Source: an uncultured Poribacteria bacterium
GTDB taxonomy: Bacteria; Poribacteria; WGA-4E; WGA-3G
NCBI GenBank assembly: GCA_951828515.1
Contig: OX639992.1
Span: 4,442,217 to 4,506,216, forward strand
DNA: 64,000 nt
Direction: 5' to 3'
Each line of letters begins with the position of its first letter. Within the stretch, counting starts at the first letter, position 1. Below the pieces are notes generated by a model. That model was not told the origin of the DNA, did no database searches, and saw only the letters and a list, made by a program, of their open reading frames with translations. Positions 1,487-15,964 of the stretch are shown here, in pieces. The translations under genes and the position numbers were made by a program.

Positions 1487-1783
1487 ATGCCGAAACGAAA
1501 ACGAAGAAACTTCACCCCTGAGTTTAAAGGCCAAGTTGTTCTTGAGGCACTTAGCGGTGAAAGTTCGCAAGCAGAAGTGTGTCGTCGACACAACCTGAGT
1601 GAAGATCAACTCTCTAAGTGGAAGCAGCAAGTCGTTGAAAACGTAGGTTCTCTGTTTGTGTCCACAGAGAAACAGTCCAGCGAGGCAGCTGAGCGGATCG
1701 CCCACCTTGAACACCTCGTCGGGCGGTTGACTGTGGCATTAGATATTGAAAAAAAAGCAGCGACGTGGTTAGACCCAAACTGA
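1487..1783 (+). CDS. IS3-family transposase OrfA (copy 1)
   Basis: This 98-residue protein is a typical IS3/IS911 OrfA. RRNFTPEFKGQVVLEAL opens a helix-turn-helix domain that continues through SQAEVCRRHNLSEDQLSKWK. A leucine-zipper-like stretch (ERIAHLEHLVGRLTVALDIE) follows. It binds the terminal repeats and is normally fused to OrfB by a -1 ribosomal frameshift. The A8 run at 1750-1757 lies just before the orfB frame, and orfB is in the -1 frame relative to orfA, as the mechanism needs. An SD (AAAGGAGG) lies upstream. Confidence 0.9.
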   Translation: MPKRKRRNFTPEFKGQVVLEALSGESSQAEVCRRHNLSEDQLSKWKQQVVENVGSLFVSTEKQSSEAAERIAHLEHLVGRLTVALDIEKKAATWLDPN

Positions 1784-2619
1784 CGGAGCAGCGAGAAATA
1801 GTTGAGGCACTCCGGACCGATTATTCGGTTCGACAGATATGTGAGGTGCTGGGTTTCACCCGAAGCACCCTCTATTATCGACCCAAGCAGGATCCGTCTG
1901 AAGTCGTCCTCCGGGAGGAAATAGAGACGTTGGCACTCCGGTATCCGACCTACGGATATAGGCGTATCACAAAACTGCTGGTGCGTATGGGATACACCGT
2001 TGGGTGTAAACGTGGGGTCTCCCGCTTGATGAAAGCCGCAAACTTATTGGTGTCCGTCAAACGGGTCTGTCAAACCACGACCTCTGTTGACAGTGTGCGT
2101 CCGTGGGGCAATCGCCTCAAAGACCTTGAAGTCTCCCGATGCGATCAGGTCTGGGTGGGCGATATTACCTACGTCCGACTCAAGGCGCGCTTCGTCTATG
2201 TTTCTCTACTCATGGATGTCTTCACTCGCAGGATTAGAGGGTGGCAAGTGAGTCAACACCTCACCCAACCGCTGACCTTGAAACCGTTACAACAGGCACT
2301 ACGTCGAAGCATTCCAGAGATCCATCATTCGGATCAAGGCGTTCAATATCTTTCAGATGCTTATGTTTCGATGCTCAGGCATCATGGGATTGAGATCTCC
2401 GTCGCCCGTCGCGGATGCCCTTGGGAGAACGGGTAGGTTTCCGAAAGACTGATCCGAACCCTCAAGGAGGAAGAAGTTCACCTCAACGACTCTGAAGACA
2501 TCCATGAAGCGAGAAATCGTATTGGACATTTTATCGAACAAGTGTATCACCAAAAACGCCCCCATTCGGCGTTAGACTATTTGACACCTATGGAATTCGA
2601 GCAACAAAACTTGGATTAA
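1765..2619 (+). pseudogene. IS3-family transposase OrfB (copy 1), interrupted by a stop
   Basis: The frame encodes an IS3 OrfB with an HTH_21-like N-terminus (YPTYGYRRITKLL) and the rve integrase core: DITYVRL for the first Asp, HHSDQGVQYLS for the second Asp and the region RTLKEEEVHLND for the Glu. A TAG at 2434-2436 falls just after ENG, where copy 2 reads ENGYAER. The same spot also has one extra codon. The frame then stays open with good similarity to the TAA at 2617-2619. The catalytic Glu lies beyond the stop, so the product would be inactive unless read through. Confidence 0.88.
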
Positions 2620-2658
2620 CTTTGCGAAATTGCGGTCTGAACAAACGGTGGCACTTCA

Positions 2659-2751
2659 TTAAGTGTTTTGACCCAAAAAACTCAAGACGTAAAAACAATA
2701 TAACAGATGGAGTAATAAGTATTACTGCTGAACAGGTAAATTCTGTAATTA
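2659..2751 (+). pseudogene. fragment of a gene broken by two insertion sequences (middle piece)
   Basis: Between IS3 copy 1 and the IS4-type element an open frame reads KCFDPKNSRRKNN then ITDGVISITAEQVNSVI. Removing the IS4-type element and one copy of a short AATTA repeat joins it in frame to the piece at 4164-4268. Removing IS3 copy 1 joins it in frame to a short stretch at 1381-1408 (RLKYFLLE). This suggests one small ancestral gene hit twice. The family is not recognised and the original start is not visible. Confidence 0.45.
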
Positions 2752-4161
2752 TACTAAAGTTTGGACAATTTTAAGAATTAAGATGTTTGAAAGCAGAAAA
2801 GCAGGTATCCTTTCATAAACATTCCACTATTTTGAAAGGAAGGCAAAAAATGCCCCTGCTTCTCCACTTAGAAGGTATTCTATCGGATTTTCGACATTTG
2901 TTCAACTCCCAAAACTTCGCACTTTTCCAAGCGTTTCTCTTCGGATTCATCGCCACAAGCGGGCGTGGAACGCTGACGGAACTTTATCAATCGAGTGCTT
3001 CGCAGACGCGGTATTGGTCGTTTCCGAAGTTTCTTTCTCGGGGAAACTGGGATCCCGATGCCATCGCCATCTGCCTCCTCAAAAGGATCCAAGACGTGTT
3101 TTCTAACTGGGTTTACGTCTATGATACCACCAAAGCCCTGAAGACGGGTAAAACCCAATGGGGTTTACATTTTTTCCGCAACTTCAGTTATCAAGGGCAT
3201 CGCGTGAATCCATCAAAGTTTCACTTCGGACACGAGTTTGGGGCCCTGGGTTTACTGTGTGCGACCCCCAGGGAGTGGCTCCTTTTTCCCGTCTGGGTAA
3301 AACTCATCATGCCTCAGACGGTTCGAGATAAAGGGGATGCGGTGTTGAAACGTATCTGTTCAAAGATCCCCCGGGGCTTGATCCTCTTTGATAGGGGGTT
3401 CGCCCGCCGCAGCGTCTTTGAAATGCTCTTGGGACTCGGACATGATATCTTGTGTCGTGCCAAGTCAAATGCGGTGTTCTATCGTTTACCGAAACGTCCG
3501 AAGCGGCCGGGGCGCGGGCGTCCGAAGAAATATGGCGACCGTCTGCAGATCCACCGCTTACGGTATAAAGAACTTTCGATCCTCGAGAAACCCTATCAGG
3601 TCGCCTCAGAGGTCGTGCGGACGAAAATGTGTCCGGCAGATGTCCGACTCGTCGTGATACGCACGCGACCCAAACGCTCGAAACCGTATCGGTATTTCTG
3701 TGTCTTTACAACAGACGTGGCACTCGAGATACCCAAGATCGTTGAATACTATCGACAGAGATGGCAGATCGAAACTGCCTTCCGAGATGTCAAGCAGCAT
3801 TTCGGGTTTGATGCCTATCGGGTGAAATCCCGCAAAAGCATCAATCGGTTCGTGCAGTTGAGTTTCGTTGCGGCTTCGCTGACGCAGCTAATCTTCTCGA
3901 TACCCGCTCCACACGCCTCGGATCAGAGACCCAGCGTCAAGGAGGTCTGCGAGCATCTCGGTATTCATTGGTATCATCCGAGGCACCTCACGCAAGGGTT
4001 ACGGGTCGCTTATTTACAATCGCACCTCAGAGCGTTGGAATATTCTGCGAGTTGCCAAGAAAAGACTAACTCACAGAATATTCATCCTATATCTCAACAC
4101 GATACCACGCTGCCTTTCGACAAAGCAGCTTGAAACTTACAATATTGTCCAAACTTTAGTA
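2752..4161 (+). mobile_element. IS4-superfamily (YREK-type) insertion sequence
   Basis: The element is bounded by perfect 18-bp terminal inverted repeats (2752-2769 and 4144-4161; TACTAAAGTTTGGACAAT and its complement). It contains a single transposase gene. An AATTA stretch abuts the left end and recurs one base beyond the right end, so the duplication and exact termini are slightly uncertain. The intact gene and exact repeats suggest a recent arrival, inserted between the two older IS3 copies. Confidence 0.9.
2850..4133 (+). CDS. IS4-superfamily DDE transposase
   Basis: From the ATG at 2850 the product is 427 residues. That start has a clear SD (AAAGGAAGG) 6 nt upstream, which favours it over an in-frame upstream start at 2787. 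Catalytic features are VYDTTKAL (first Asp), LILFDRGFARRS (second Asp) and the YREK signature YRQRWQIETAFRDVK with Tyr, Arg, Glu and Lys in the expected spacing. A basic linker (RPKRPGRGRPKKYG) lies between the second Asp and the Glu. The gene appears intact and the element possibly active. IS701 or a related IS4 subgroup is most likely; the exact subgroup was not determined. Confidence 0.88.
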   Translation: MPLLLHLEGILSDFRHLFNSQNFALFQAFLFGFIATSGRGTLTELYQSSASQTRYWSFPKFLSRGNWDPDAIAICLLKRIQDVFSNWVYVYDTTKALKTGKTQWGLHFFRNFSYQGHRVNPSKFHFGHEFGALGLLCATPREWLLFPVWVKLIMPQTVRDKGDAVLKRICSKIPRGLILFDRGFARRSVFEMLLGLGHDILCRAKSNAVFYRLPKRPKRPGRGRPKKYGDRLQIHRLRYKELSILEKPYQVASEVVRTKMCPADVRLVVIRTRPKRSKPYRYFCVFTTDVALEIPKIVEYYRQRWQIETAFRDVKQHFGFDAYRVKSRKSINRFVQLSFVAASLTQLIFSIPAPHASDQRPSVKEVCEHLGIHWYHPRHLTQGLRVAYLQSHLRALEYSASCQEKTNSQNIHPISQHDTTLPFDKAA

Positions 4162-4163
4162 AA

Positions 4164-4268
4164 ATTAAAGGTTTATCAAAAAGCAGTAAAAGAACAGCTT
4201 TATCAGATTTAAGGCGAGGGCTTGCCGAAAATGCAATACTCAGAGTAAAACCTATTCCCTTCCCATAG
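4164..4268 (+). pseudogene. fragment of a gene broken by the IS4-type element (3' piece)
   Basis: Immediately after the IS4-type element an open frame reads IKGLSKSSKRTALSDLRRG then LAENAILRVKPIPFP and ends at TAG 4266-4268. When the element is removed it continues the frame at 2659-2751, giving NSV-IKGLSK across the junction. The composition looks protein-like. Function unknown. Confidence 0.45.
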
Positions 4269-4415
4269 CTTTTACAAAGAATAAACTGCCATATGTCTAA
4301 CTCAATTCACGTTTAAATTTAATTCCAGTGTCGCCACTGTACTGCCTACGGTTTTTTAGACCACTCCCTAAAGGAAGATTGTGATATAATGCAATCTCAT
4401 TGAAAGGAGTATCCA

Positions 4416-4700
4416 ATGGCGAAACGAAGAAAATTCACGCCTGAATTTAAAGCTGAAGTTGTTCTTGAAGTCCTCAGTGGAGCGACTTCACAAGCAGAAG
4501 TGTGTCGTCACCATAATCTCAACGAGAATCAACTCTCACAGTGGAAGCGACAGTTGCTTGAAAATGCCTCGACGCTGTTTGAGTCTACTGATAAGCAGTC
4601 GAGTGAGGTCTCCGAGCAGCGTATCGCTCACCTTGAGCAACTTGTTGGGAGATTAACGGTGGCCTTAGACATCCAAAAACAGGTTCCTTGGATTGGTTGA
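4416..4700 (+). CDS. IS3-family transposase OrfA (copy 2)
   Basis: A 94-residue OrfA, closely similar to copy 1: KRRKFTPEFKAEVVLEVL, the helix-turn-helix segment SQAEVCRHHNLNENQLSQWK, and the leucine-zipper-like ERIAHLEQ-type stretch. An SD (AAAGGAG) precedes the ATG. The slippery run is reduced to A5 in a changed context and the orfB frame relation differs from copy 1, so fusion by -1 slippage is unlikely. Confidence 0.88.
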   Translation: MAKRRKFTPEFKAEVVLEVLSGATSQAEVCRHHNLNENQLSQWKRQLLENASTLFESTDKQSSEVSEQRIAHLEQLVGRLTVALDIQKQVPWIG

Positions 4701-5543
4701 AATGACCTTATCCGAAAAGCGAAGCCTCATTTCGGCATTGCACAAGGAGTATTCCGTGCGAGAGATTTGTCAAACACTCGGTTTCAATCGCAGTAGTTTC
4801 TATTATCACCCCCAAGAGGATCCGTCCGAAGATCTGCTACGATCGGAAATAGAGAAACTGGTTCCGGAGCGTATCCGAGATACGGATATAGGCGTATCAC
4901 ACAACTACTTCTGCGTCAGGGATACACCGTTGGAACCCGACGCGTCGCCCGGTTGATGAAAGCTAATAATCTCTTGGTCGCCGTCAAGCGTGCGTGTCAA
5001 ACAACAAAATCGCTTCAGGGGGATAAACCATGGCACAACCGCCTCGAAACCCTTGAGGTCTCTCGTCAGGATCAGGTCTGGGTGTCTGATATTACCTATG
5101 TTCGTCTCAAGGGACGTTTCATCTATGTCTGCCTGCTCATGGATGTTTTCACTCGGATGATCAGAGCGTGGCAGATCAGTCAGCACTTGAACCAATCTCT
5201 GACGCTCAAACCCCTCAAGGAGGCATTCTGCCACAGCGTCCCTGAGATTCATCATTCTGATCAAGGCGTGCAGTATCTTTCAAGGGCCTATATCACAACG
5301 CTCGAAGAACATGGCGTTGAGATTTCCGTCGCCCAGCGCGGACGGCCTTGGGAGAACGGATATGCTGAAAGACTCATACGCACCCTCAAAGAGGAAGAAG
5401 TTCACCTCAATGACTATCAAAGCATCACCGAGGCGAGAGATCGCATCGGACATTTTATCACACAGGTGTATCATCAGAAACGCCCACATTCGGCGTTAGG
5501 GTATTTGACACCTATAGAATTTCAGCAGCAAACCTTATCTTAA
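4693..5543 (+). pseudogene. IS3-family transposase OrfB (copy 2), frameshifted
   Basis: The first part (4693 to about 4870) reads the N-terminal OrfB helix-turn-helix. Near 4860-4873 the frame shifts: the following DNA encodes the expected YPRYGYRRITQLLLRQGYTV in another frame. The rest (about 4872-5543) holds an intact integrase core with VSDITYVRL, HHSDQGVQYLS and the Glu region ERLIRTLKEEEVHLND. A start inside (4953) could give a truncated protein with the catalytic core only. Confidence 0.87.
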
Positions 5544-5908: not shown

Positions 5909-6874
5909 ATGAAACAACTTACGCAAGCCGCATTTCAGAGCGCAAAGAATTTTATAATGGAGCAGGGGAGAGCAGTGGACCAAAGACGTTTTGAATTCCA
6001 TTTTGAGAATGGATCCGCTGATGCCGTCCTCGCCGCGCTATCACCGTATCAAAACGACGACGGTGGATTTGCCCACAATCTGGAGCCCGATATCAGGAGC
6101 TCTGCTTCGTCTGCAATAGTGACCACTTTAGGTTTCCAGATTCTCAGGGAAATTCGAGCACCTGTAAGTCACATAGTGGTACGGAAGGGAATCCAATATT
6201 TTATTGACACTTATGACGAACCCCAGCGGGTATGGCACATCGTTCCACCTGAAGTGGATGATGCCCCTCATGCTCCTTGGTGGAATTACAAGAGTAGTCC
6301 CGAAACTTTCGGACAGTTTCTGATCAACCCTCGCGCTGAGATTGTCGGATATTTGCACGAATTTAGCGATGGCGTGCCGACGAAATTGTTGAAAACATTA
6401 ACAGCATCCGTTCTGGAGCATCTGGATTTCCTGCCCGACGAAATGGAGATGCACGATGTCCTCTGTTGCGTAAGGCTCGCGGGGACGGAAGCTCTGCCGA
6501 ATACGGACAAGATCTGGGAGAAACTCGCTCGCACAGCGGCGCAGGGTGTTGCCCGGAACGCGGAGCAGTTGACTGATTATGTTCTCAAGCCTTTATGGTT
6601 GGTACCCTCTCCAGAATCACCCTTAGCTGCTGGGCTCAAGGATGAAGTGGAGATGAACTTGGATTTTGAGATCGGACAGCAGGGCGCGGACGGTTCTTGG
6701 TCCCCGAATTTCTCTTGGGACGATCAATATCCAGAGGTATGGCGAACAGCCAAGAAAGAGTGGCAATCTAGACTTACGGTTGATATCCTGAGAAAGTTGA
6801 AAGATTTCGGGCGCATTGCGCAAAAAGTTGAAAAAAACGCAGCGAAATCCAATGAAACACGCTATCTATCCTGA
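5909..6874 (+). CDS. uncharacterised protein with terpenoid-cyclase-toroid-like features
   Basis: The 321-residue protein has no signal peptide or membrane segment. Segments such as PYQNDDGGFAHNLEPDIR (about residues 46-63) and GQQGADGSWSPNFSW (about 253-267) resemble the QxxDGGF/W repeats of alpha/alpha toroid proteins such as squalene cyclases and prenyltransferases. The middle contains helices without known motifs. No catalytic DxDD or zinc ligands of those enzymes are evident, so an enzymatic role is not claimed. An SD (AGAGG) precedes the start and a palindrome lies upstream. It is monocistronic and followed by a group II intron on the opposite strand. Confidence 0.75.
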   Translation: MKQLTQAAFQSAKNFIMEQGRAVDQRRFEFHFENGSADAVLAALSPYQNDDGGFAHNLEPDIRSSASSAIVTTLGFQILREIRAPVSHIVVRKGIQYFIDTYDEPQRVWHIVPPEVDDAPHAPWWNYKSSPETFGQFLINPRAEIVGYLHEFSDGVPTKLLKTLTASVLEHLDFLPDEMEMHDVLCCVRLAGTEALPNTDKIWEKLARTAAQGVARNAEQLTDYVLKPLWLVPSPESPLAAGLKDEVEMNLDFEIGQQGADGSWSPNFSWDDQYPEVWRTAKKEWQSRLTVDILRKLKDFGRIAQKVEKNAAKSNETRYLS

Positions 6875-6900
6875 AAATCCTCTAATCCTGAAAATCGTAA

Positions 6901-7588
6901 GGTAGTCGTAGAGGGTCGCCCCTCTACAACCCCTTCCAAACCGTGCGTGCGACTTTCACCGCACACGGAACCTTCCAGTTAAGTGTGGCGATAAACGCTT
7001 TAGGTGATGAGAACCACTTTTACTTTATTCCTTATTCATAAGTCATTGACTTCTATAGACGGCATGTTTTCACAAGATTTACGTCTATAGATAAAATGTT
7101 TTTAGAAATGTTTCAAAGCACTCAACCTGATTATGCTTGCGTCTCTTGACGCTACCTAATCTCCTCAACCTTATAGACTCAGTGAGTCTACTTAGGTTCT
7201 CTTTGACTTACCAATAATAGACTTCGCTGACGGATTTAGGAGTGTTCTGTACCCCGATGCGTTGAGCATCTCAACGCTGTATTCATGTCAGACGCAATAG
7301 ATTGCCAAATCAGAGGACAATCTTTATGAATACCATAGTTTTTCAAGGCGTTTCTATGTCTTGTCTAACGAGGCTTACGAACATTGAACTTTCGCTTCTC
7401 CGTGTCCGTCGTTTATCGGACGTGCCAGTTTTGGCTCTCTTGCGAGGTCGCCTTTGCCTCAGGCATTCGCCATTTCCCCTTGCTTTCCACACTGCTGTTT
7501 CCAGCGATGCAGTTAGGGTAGGATATGCGGAGTGCGTCCTCCGAGTCGGAATTGAACCTACATTCTATTATTGTTTGTCAAAGCGCAC
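6901..7588 (-). ncRNA. ORF-less group II intron (chloroplast-like class)
   Basis: Read on the minus strand the 688-nt element begins GTGCG (7588 downwards). It contains the conserved domain I blocks TGTGGAAAGCAAGGGG and AAAGGCGACCTC, has domain V at 6971-6938 with stem GTGTGCGGTGAAAGTCGCAC, and ends with a domain VI-like 11-bp hairpin. Exon recognition can be read directly. EBS1 (7313-7308) lies in the loop of a 7-bp hairpin (7322-7300) and pairs with IBS1 at 7594-7589. EBS2 (7366-7361) pairs with IBS2 at 7601-7596. No reverse transcriptase is encoded, so mobility would need one in trans. The domain V catalytic AGC triad appears replaced (see findings). The right boundary is approximate by a few bases. 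Confidence 0.88.
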
Positions 7589-7619
7589 CTGATTCAGACA
7601 ATTAACCAAAAATTACCCC

Positions 7620-9333: not shown

Positions 9334-10293
9334 CTACGAGTGTTGCGCATTACACAGGAGATTTCCCGCTTGTGCGCAGGCAACCTGTTCAAGCTGCACG
9401 GTAGTGTGGCTGATACCGAAGTGTGTTTGCAGTTCCGTGTTGATCTGTTCAAGGATCCGGTCAGGAGGTAGCGTTGTATTTTCGTTAAGCACAACATGGG
9501 CACTTAGCGCACAGTAGTTAGAACAAAGTGACCAGATGTGCATGTCGTGGACATCTTCAACCGCTTCTAATTCGCAGAGGTGTTCAGCGACAGTGTGTGC
9601 GTCTGTGTTCCGTGGCGAGTTTTCAAACAAGATATGCACCGCTTCTCTCGTTACGTTCACCGCCCCGAAAAGAATAATCACACCAATCAGGAAACTCAGC
9701 AACGCGTCAATCGGGTACCATCCTGTCCAGAAGATAATCGCGCCTCCGACAACCACCGCGACGGAGGAGAGGGTATCGCCTATCACGTGGAGCATCGCAC
9801 TCCGGACGTTGAGATTTCCGTGCCACTCATTGTTACTGCCACCGTGCAACTGCCATAAGATGAGTAGGTTTCCTACGAATCCGAGGCATGCTACAATAAA
9901 CATCCCCGTCACTTTTATTTCTGTCGGCGACATGTACCGGTGGTATGCTGCATAGAAAATCCAGCCGGAGATCCCAATAAGAGACACACCGTTGACGAAA
10001 GCGGCGAAGACTTCTGCGCGATGATACCCATAAGTCCGCGATGAGGTCGCGGGACGTGTCGAGAGATAAATTGCCAGCCAACTAATCAGCAGCGAGCAGA
10101 CATCCGATAACACATGTGCCGCATCACTTAGGAGCGCAAGACTCCCTGACCAGAGACCTCCGATGAGTTCGCCGAGGAAGACGCAAAACGTGATCAGCAC
10201 GGCAAACTTGAATTTCTTCTGGAGATGCGTTTGATGGCTATGCTCGTGCACATCGCCATGATGGTGGTGATGGTCGTGACTGTGATTGTGCAC
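9334..10293 (-). CDS. CDF-family cation efflux protein (CzcD/ZitB-like)
   Basis: The 319-residue protein opens with a His-rich cytosolic tail (HSHDHHHHHGDVHEHSH). Six membrane segments follow. HxxxD motifs in TM2 (SDAAHVLSD) and TM5 (HVIGDTLSS) form the zinc site, and a cytosolic ferredoxin-like domain ends the protein. It exchanges Zn2+/Cd2+-type ions for protons. I place the start at GTG 10293 because an SD (AAAGGGAGA) lies 5 nt upstream. The open frame continues upstream through a tandem repeat array (10314-10511), but that part encodes only iterated low-complexity peptide. The C-terminal end nearly meets the convergent ferritin-like gene. Confidence 0.92.
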   Translation of the reverse strand: MHNHSHDHHHHHGDVHEHSHQTHLQKKFKFAVLITFCVFLGELIGGLWSGSLALLSDAAHVLSDVCSLLISWLAIYLSTRPATSSRTYGYHRAEVFAAFVNGVSLIGISGWIFYAAYHRYMSPTEIKVTGMFIVACLGFVGNLLILWQLHGGSNNEWHGNLNVRSAMLHVIGDTLSSVAVVVGGAIIFWTGWYPIDALLSFLIGVIILFGAVNVTREAVHILFENSPRNTDAHTVAEHLCELEAVEDVHDMHIWSLCSNYCALSAHVVLNENTTLPPDRILEQINTELQTHFGISHTTVQLEQVACAQAGNLLCNAQHS

Positions 10294-10313
10294 AACGTCT
10301 CCCTTTAAAAGTA

Positions 10314-10511
10314 GTAGGCACACTCCGTTGTGCCGAAACCAAAATAGTAGACACACTCCGTTGTGCCGAAACCAAAGTAGTAGGCACACTCCGTTGTGCC
10401 GAAACCAAAGTAGTAGACACACTCCGTTGTGCCGAAACCAAAATAGTAGACACACTCCGTTGTGCCGAAACCAAAATAGTAGACACACTCCGTTGTGCCG
10501 AAACCTAAAAT
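10314..10511. repeat. six tandem 33-bp palindromic units
   Basis: Six head-to-tail copies of a 33-bp unit, differing mainly at two positions (GGCACA or GACACA, and AAAATA or AAAGTA). Each unit contains the small inverted repeat GGCACA-CTCCGT-TGTGCC. The array starts 21 bp upstream of the GTG start of the CDF gene, so it lies in its leader. The unit length is a multiple of three and all frames stay open, which creates spurious reading frames on both strands. There are no unique spacers, so it is not CRISPR. Confidence 0.95.
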
Positions 10512-14683: not shown

Positions 14684-15844
14684 TCATTCCACGCCAGTCA
14701 CAACACCAAACCCAATTCGCACATCCATCTTCTTTACCTCAAATCGTGTGCCTATTTCCATTACCAGTGGTAAGTCAAGTGTAAGGGAGACGTGGGCATA
14801 ACTCCCCGGTGTAATAAGAGAGAGACCTGGCGGGAGTTTTAGATGCGCGGGCATATCGGTACCCCATAGATGGATGTCGGGTCTATCGTTTTCGATGAGT
14901 GGGATGTGTGTGCCGCTCTCTTCGTGTGTCAGCAGATAGATGAGTGCGGTAAATTCGGAATGCGATTTGACGGTCTTCGGTGTGCAAAGCACCTGTCCAG
15001 TAGACAACCAATCGGGTTCAGATTCGACGCACACTTCATCCTCCTTTATGCTGAGGACCCGCGTCTTAATTCTGTCCCCTTTACCCACAATATCTACCGC
15101 TTGTCCGACAGCGAGTTGTCCCTGTACAATATCGCCACGGACGGATACACTCTCCTTCGTTTCCTCATTGATTTCATGGATCGGCATTATAAGCGGTAAG
15201 CTTGCAGGGTCCACAGGGGCAGGCATTGCCCGATTCATCGCGAAAATAAGGTCAACAATCGGTTGCCACTGCGTAGAGGTGATACTGTCTCCCCTGTAGT
15301 CTAATGCCTTACGCGCATCACCGACAATTATTGGGGTGGTTTCTGGATTCCATCCACACTCGTTCAGCAGTTCTTCCATTTCCTGTTGACAAATGTCTAT
15401 AAGCTCATCGTCTTTTGGAATGCCGTCTGTGTTCAGGAAGGATAACACTGTCGGGTAATGCATCTGATTCGCAAGGCGGAGATGCGACTCGGAGTCGGGT
15501 GTGACCCCCTCGACTGCATTTACGATCCAAATTGCACCATGTATTGCCGGAGAACCGCTGACGAGCATTTTGACAACGTCGATGTGGGTCTCGCAATCGA
15601 TTTGGGTGTAAAGTTTACCACTGGTTTCATACGCTATAGCGCGGTAGGTGATGCCAACCCCCTCTCGGATTGGGTGACTGATTGGGGGTTGTGTTTCAAA
15701 ATCGCTATCTCCGTTCGTGTGGATCGCACCGATTCTCGCAACAACCTTCGCTATCGCCGCTGTCAATGTTGTTTTGCCATGTCCGAGTGCGCCGAGCGTG
15801 CAAATAGGTAATCTGCCGTGCGTGTGTTCTTTTTGATCTGTCAT
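14684..15844 (-). CDS. EF-Tu-like protein with degenerate GTPase motifs
   Basis: The 386-residue protein spans the whole EF-Tu length, including domain 2 (VRGDIVQGQLAVGQAVDIVG) and domain 3 (FTALIYLLTHEE). G1 reads GALGHGKTTL and still fits a P-loop. G3 is DCETH instead of DCPGH, losing the Gly of DxxG. G4 is NTDG instead of NKxD. The switch I region is also unusual. It is therefore an EF-Tu paralogue that probably binds or hydrolyses GTP poorly, if at all. It is not the housekeeping tuf, which should be elsewhere. ATG 15844 is preceded by AGGAGAAAAAAG. Function unknown; a role in binding tRNA or ribosome parts is possible. Confidence 0.85.
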   Translation of the reverse strand: MTDQKEHTHGRLPICTLGALGHGKTTLTAAIAKVVARIGAIHTNGDSDFETQPPISHPIREGVGITYRAIAYETSGKLYTQIDCETHIDVVKMLVSGSPAIHGAIWIVNAVEGVTPDSESHLRLANQMHYPTVLSFLNTDGIPKDDELIDICQQEMEELLNECGWNPETTPIIVGDARKALDYRGDSITSTQWQPIVDLIFAMNRAMPAPVDPASLPLIMPIHEINEETKESVSVRGDIVQGQLAVGQAVDIVGKGDRIKTRVLSIKEDEVCVESEPDWLSTGQVLCTPKTVKSHSEFTALIYLLTHEESGTHIPLIENDRPDIHLWGTDMPAHLKLPPGLSLITPGSYAHVSLTLDLPLVMEIGTRFEVKKMDVRIGFGVVTGVE

Positions 15845-15964
15845 CTTTTTTCTCCTGATCGACCTAATTTTTTTACTACAATTTCCATTGTATTGTAGCA
15901 CAGAATCATGAATTCGGCAATAGAGGAAAAACTTGCCAAGTGGTCGGAGTATGGTAGATTCTGC

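Follow-up and report, generated by a model that had tools for sequence, protein, structure and literature searches.

A domain V triad alteration in a full-length ORF-less group II intron from a Poribacteria-related genome recurs in other introns of the genus

Introduction

In group II introns the AGC triad of domain V binds the catalytic metals. The triad is close to invariant, as is its G.U pair, and it is shared with the spliceosome. In O. iheyensis, almost all activity is lost on a single G to A change in the triad, which stops the metals from binding (PMC3669008), and RmInt1 no longer splices when mutated in domain V (PMC5037169). Among natural elements, C.te.I1 of Clostridium tetani is an ORF-less group II intron (reviewed in PMC4424553). 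Here, an ORF-less intron is described from a 64,000-nucleotide stretch of DNA (the window; G000:C1:4442217-4506216) within a single-contig 5.85 Mb genome. The intron is genuine and ordinary in kind; what is unusual is that its triad lesion recurs within one genus among introns that are not sisters of one another.

Results

Intron boundaries and parts

A group II intron of 692 nt (GTGCG...CTTAC), full-length and ORF-less, occupies 7588-6897 of the window on the minus strand, in a Poribacteria-related genome. The Rfam model for domains V-VI, RF00029, matches 6976-6897 (-) with 48.4 bits (E 1.9e-6 in a search of the 64 kb window; gathering threshold, 40 bits), and the domain I model RF02012 (group-II-D1D4-7) matches 7545-7408 (-) with an E of 3e-4, a match that falls below the model's cut-off and is the sole pointer to structural subclass (IIA, IIB or IIC). 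Among the window ORFs examined, none of at least 80 aa lies on the intron strand inside 7588-6897. The original prediction of an ORF-less group II intron is thus upheld by the covariance search that it had proposed, by the lack of such an ORF and by full-length relatives.

The element starts with GTGCG at 7588 and finishes CTACCTTAC, its 3' terminus reading ..CTACCUUAC with the closing AC at 6897, and both ends conform to the 5' GUGYG and 3' AY of group II introns. An earlier placement of the 3' end at 6901 was 4 nt short; the end at 6897 is established by the covariance model, the relatives and an empty orthologous site. Domain V occupies 6938-6974 (-) in the RF00029 alignment, and the A at 6903 (-), 7 nt from the intron's 3' terminus, is the candidate branch point of domain VI.

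Target site and insertion

The intron carries target-recognition sequences that pair with its 5' exon over at least 6 nt each. EBS1 (CTGATT, 7313-7308) complements IBS1 (AATCAG, 7594-7589), and EBS2 (TTAGACAA, 7368-7361, a position also used by the related intron L045) pairs with IBS2 (TTGTCT, 7601-7596), all on the minus strand. In L082, L012, L150 and L045 the sequence at the EBS1 position is the complement of each copy's own IBS1, and because of this covariation the pairing is more than chance; both pairings stand where they had been predicted.

Insertion took place in a dispersed repeat, TTGTCTGAATCAG/GATTTTCAGGATT with the slash marking the junction (about ATTGTCTGAATCAG/GATTTTCAGGATTnnAGGATTTTCAGGATTA), of which the intron separates a 5' half (ATTGTCTGAATCAG, 7589-7602) from a 3' half (GATTTTCAGGATTAGAGGATTTTCAGGAT, 6868-6896), both on the minus strand. 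The repeat has 92 matches in the genome at no more than 3 mismatches (reversed control, 0), and 18 copies were aligned. When joined, the window flanks align at 90% over 248 bp to the orthologous locus of genome G012, straight over the junction; because the alignment is uninterrupted, G012 lacks the intron, whose termini are placed at 7588 and 6897 and whose insertion duplicated no target sequence. Insertion was therefore site-specific, and the suggestion that the element homes to a dispersed repeat is confirmed by the repeat copies and by this empty site. The orthologous locus of G011 has neither the intron nor the repeat. A second, truncated copy of the intron (L010) has its 5' end in another copy of the repeat, beside an IS607/TnpB-like element. 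The repeat TCTGAATCAGGATTTTCAGGATTNNAGGATTTTCAGGATT occurs genome-wide (e.g., L097-L114), with 92 copies here and many in related genomes.

Of the two neighbouring genes, one encodes a 321-aa protein that matches no Pfam family and the other a Gfo/Idh/MocA oxidoreductase; as each lies on the plus strand, the intron is not only intergenic but also antisense to its neighbours. Other features of the window include a cluster of transposase genes and remnants at 1487-5543, shortly ahead of the intron region, with a DDE_Tnp_1 transposase as well as two IS3-type pairs, and an EF-Tu-like GTPase paralogue of 405 aa at 14684-15901 (-), with matches to the GTP-binding and C-terminal domains and none to domain 2. 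A cation-efflux protein ORF at 9334-10488 (-) carries at its N terminus a (CLLFWFRHNGV)n extension, the in-frame translation of a 33-bp tandem repeat (6.2 copies, 10308-10511), and its true start may be downstream.

Form of the domain V triad

Canonical relatives begin domain V with GGAAAGC or GGAGAGC, while the window intron reads GGAAGGUUC; the AGC (or CGC) triad that marks catalytic competence is not present. The covariance model and the relatives align the intron as GGAAG[guu]CCG, such that AG is replaced by GGUU (6969-6972, minus strand) ahead of C4 at 6968. The triad thus takes the form GG(UU)C, with A2 changed to G and two U's inserted between G3 and C4. The triad had been predicted to be altered, as it is, by a change of AGC to TTC that loses pairing to the 3' strand; these alignments rule out such a plain substitution, and the outer pairing can persist, as base complementarity would allow the 3' strand GGUUU still to pair G.U, G.U and A-U if the U's are bulged out. 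The lowest-energy fold sets the UUCC of the window intron against a downstream GGAA and is a misfold. A quasi-palindrome correction copying the 3' arm was also rejected, as it predicts CCAAACC and GGUUUCC is observed. In J2/3, the partner of the triad, there is no carrier-specific change, and no compensation was seen. Outside domain V, 4.3-4.9% of pairs are broken in the window intron versus 3.9-6.7% in canonical relatives (out of sample), and its tip branch is short (0.035).

Relatives and reverse transcriptase supply

A search of 60 related genomes placed most full or partial relatives in the same genus, with identities to the window intron of 82% for L011, 83% for L082, 78% for L012 and 85% for L013 (over its part only). 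L011, L082 and L012 are full-length at 688-719 nt, and are too short to hold a reverse transcriptase gene. These closest full-length relatives (78-83%) have the ordinary AGC triad. Cousins bearing a reverse transcriptase are found in sister species, including L040 with an intact 611-aa RVT_1/maturase/HNH protein. In L040, L043, L049 and L062, the protein ORF enters domain V and its TGA stop forms part of the hairpin GGTGAAA.

The trans-acting reverse transcriptase proposed as a possible partner was not found complete in the window's own genome: there was no RVT_1 match, and a search with the L040 protein returned only fragments, namely a C-terminal piece in the deleted intron L009 and a 38-aa scrap (these searches were a first-look filter and the genomes are mostly MAGs). 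With only fragments at hand, the intron looks stranded now; presumably it formerly moved in trans. The ORF-less family has spread through the genus, apparently on borrowed reverse transcriptase.

Recurrence of the altered triad

Four more introns of the genus carry the GG(U)1-3C form: L009, in the same genome as the window, L040 and L019 with UUU, and L015 with one U. The carriers represent five of the 62 domain V matches listed across 84 genomes of the phylum, and three of the five (L009, L015 and L019) are otherwise deleted or truncated. In L009 and L040, the reverse transcriptase ORF runs through domain V and the insertion is exactly 3 nt, changing ESRVR* to EGFRVR*. All carriers retain the pair outside the triad, which is G-C in L040 and L019 and A-U in the window intron, L009 and L015. 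Other non-AGC triads among the introns of the phylum are AAC (L032 and L141) and GGC (L055 and L137).

Beyond this collection, 84,980 species were scanned for the variant placed behind a common hairpin tip; the scan, covering that one tip sequence, returned only two contigs, both from Poribacteria and already in the set. The public records that show this domain V form are MAGs of Candidatus Poribacteria. No viral contig had the variant, which says little because only one canonical match occurs there. For plasmids, 423 records have a similar domain V, and the variant arm is covered by none of the best matches listed among them. A literature search on group II introns of Poribacteria found nothing relevant.

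The carriers are polyphyletic, and the nearest kin of each are canonical. In a tree built from the 3' portion of the ORF-less introns, with domain V columns excluded (291 columns, a short alignment), three state changes are needed, and a single clade of the three ORF-less carriers is rejected (p_AU 1.7e-9). In a quick tree of the reverse transcriptase proteins, L040 is sister to the canonical L062 (SH-aLRT 98) and L009 to the canonical L050 (100). An inherited family trait is excluded by the AU test and these canonical sisters. L009 is 90% identical to L050 and the two are flanked by homologous sequence on the 3' side, though their 5' flanks differ; because L050 has AGC, the triad of L009 probably changed in place.

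Introns of the genus recombine. L008, a second ORF-less intron of the genome (about 5026-4306, G000:C1:3504305), is chimeric, with a domain I that is 82% like that of the reverse transcriptase-bearing L115 (G032) and a domain VI identical to those of the ORF-less L045 and L019. A CCGU stem is present in all three ORF-less carriers versus one of ten canonical family members (a count made after the fact), a sharing that would fit transfer of a sequence patch.

Discussion

The original prediction held that the element may be dead or may use an unusual core; death is favoured here. The recurrence of the same form in four more introns of the genus lay beyond what that prediction could know. With a probability of about 0.7, the window intron appears to be a young, otherwise intact element killed by a triad lesion that recurs through mutation or gene conversion, and catalytic death is judged about five times likelier than life. 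An intron lineage without a reverse transcriptase, presumably mobilised in trans, would have reverse-spliced through EBS1/EBS2 pairing into the dispersed repeat TCTGAATCAG/GATTTTCAGGAT once the host lineage had diverged from G012, at a locus whose joined exons read TCTGAATCAG/GATTTTCAGG. The rest of the RNA is preserved, but the AGC of domain V became GG(UU)C, a change expected to keep the two catalytic metals from binding, and without metal binding the copy would no longer splice or move. It may be tolerated because it sits between genes and antisense to both. At least five introns of the genus have acquired this form, either anew or through recombinational copying, and the lesion behaves as a recurrent dead-end and not as an inherited family trait.

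Several observations pull the other way, since random decay should not strike the same three letters five times in an identical manner and in a single genus only, the window intron has lost no more pairs outside domain V than its canonical relatives and has a short tip branch, and L040 is complete with an intact reverse transcriptase. It is possible, if unlikely, that the altered domain V works, with GG and one to three extruded U's before C4 providing an alternative active site, perhaps helped by a maturase; that such a site was reached or exchanged repeatedly within the genus is given the same low weight, and slightly more doubtful is the fuller proposal that GG(U)1-3C is a convergent or exchanged active site of one genus that would both splice and retrohome (perhaps depending on the maturase). 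Its presence in five polyphyletic introns, the outer pair kept as G-C or A-U depending on the version, the in-frame 3-nt insertion where the reverse transcriptase ORF crosses domain V and the good preservation of the rest of the window intron count in favour of a working variant. Set against these are the near-invariance of the triad and its G.U pair, where single changes abolish activity, and the lack of a matching change in J2/3. Further, every carrier is a tip with canonical kin, no two carriers are related by descent as carriers, and L009 is altered next to a 90% identical canonical relative sharing its 3' flank. Together with the deletion or truncation of three of the five carriers and the misfold of the window intron, these points favour death.

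How the form came to recur can also be read differently. The lesion may have arisen once and then spread by recombination as a short domain V patch, without repeated mutation, among introns many of which were already inactive; the chimeric L008, the CCGU stem that is rare among canonical members and the two carriers within one genome are consistent with such exchange. We regard this account as improbable, given that G006, G016 and G029 show no carrier that could have served as donor, that the tract would need to be under about 40 nt, and that the number of U's and the neighbouring base vary between carriers. A sequencing or assembly error in the window is less probable again: the window comes from a single-contig genome and long reads can misjudge the length of a U run, but four genomes, each assembled separately, contain the GG(U)nC form, and an A to G change is no homopolymer error, so that doubt attaches only to the exact U count of the window intron. 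The five introns with the same disrupted triad represent either natural active-site variants or a specific pathway, mutational or by gene conversion, that inactivates introns.

Compared with described systems, the window intron is closest to C.te.I1 in being full-length and ORF-less in a genome without a complete related reverse transcriptase. C.te.I1 self-splices robustly, with altered splice sites, whereas the window intron has a broken triad and lies in an intergenic dispersed repeat. With the mobile RT/maturase/HNH introns of sister species (L040, L043 and L062) it shares a homologous domain I, domains V-VI and the logic of EBS/IBS pairing; it differs in having no protein gene and in its GG(UU)C triad, although L040 is altered as well and has kept its protein. 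The disturbance of the domain V triad helix resembles that of the laboratory mutants G359A of O. iheyensis (PMC3669008) and GUU to CGA of RmInt1 (PMC5037169), but those are single or triple substitutions and the natural form combines A2 to G with an insertion of one to three U's. Finally, the loss of canonical ribozyme parts is a likeness to the degenerate group II introns of organelles (PMC4424553), which reside in housekeeping genes and are spliced by host factors, whereas the window intron is intergenic and has no known need to be spliced.
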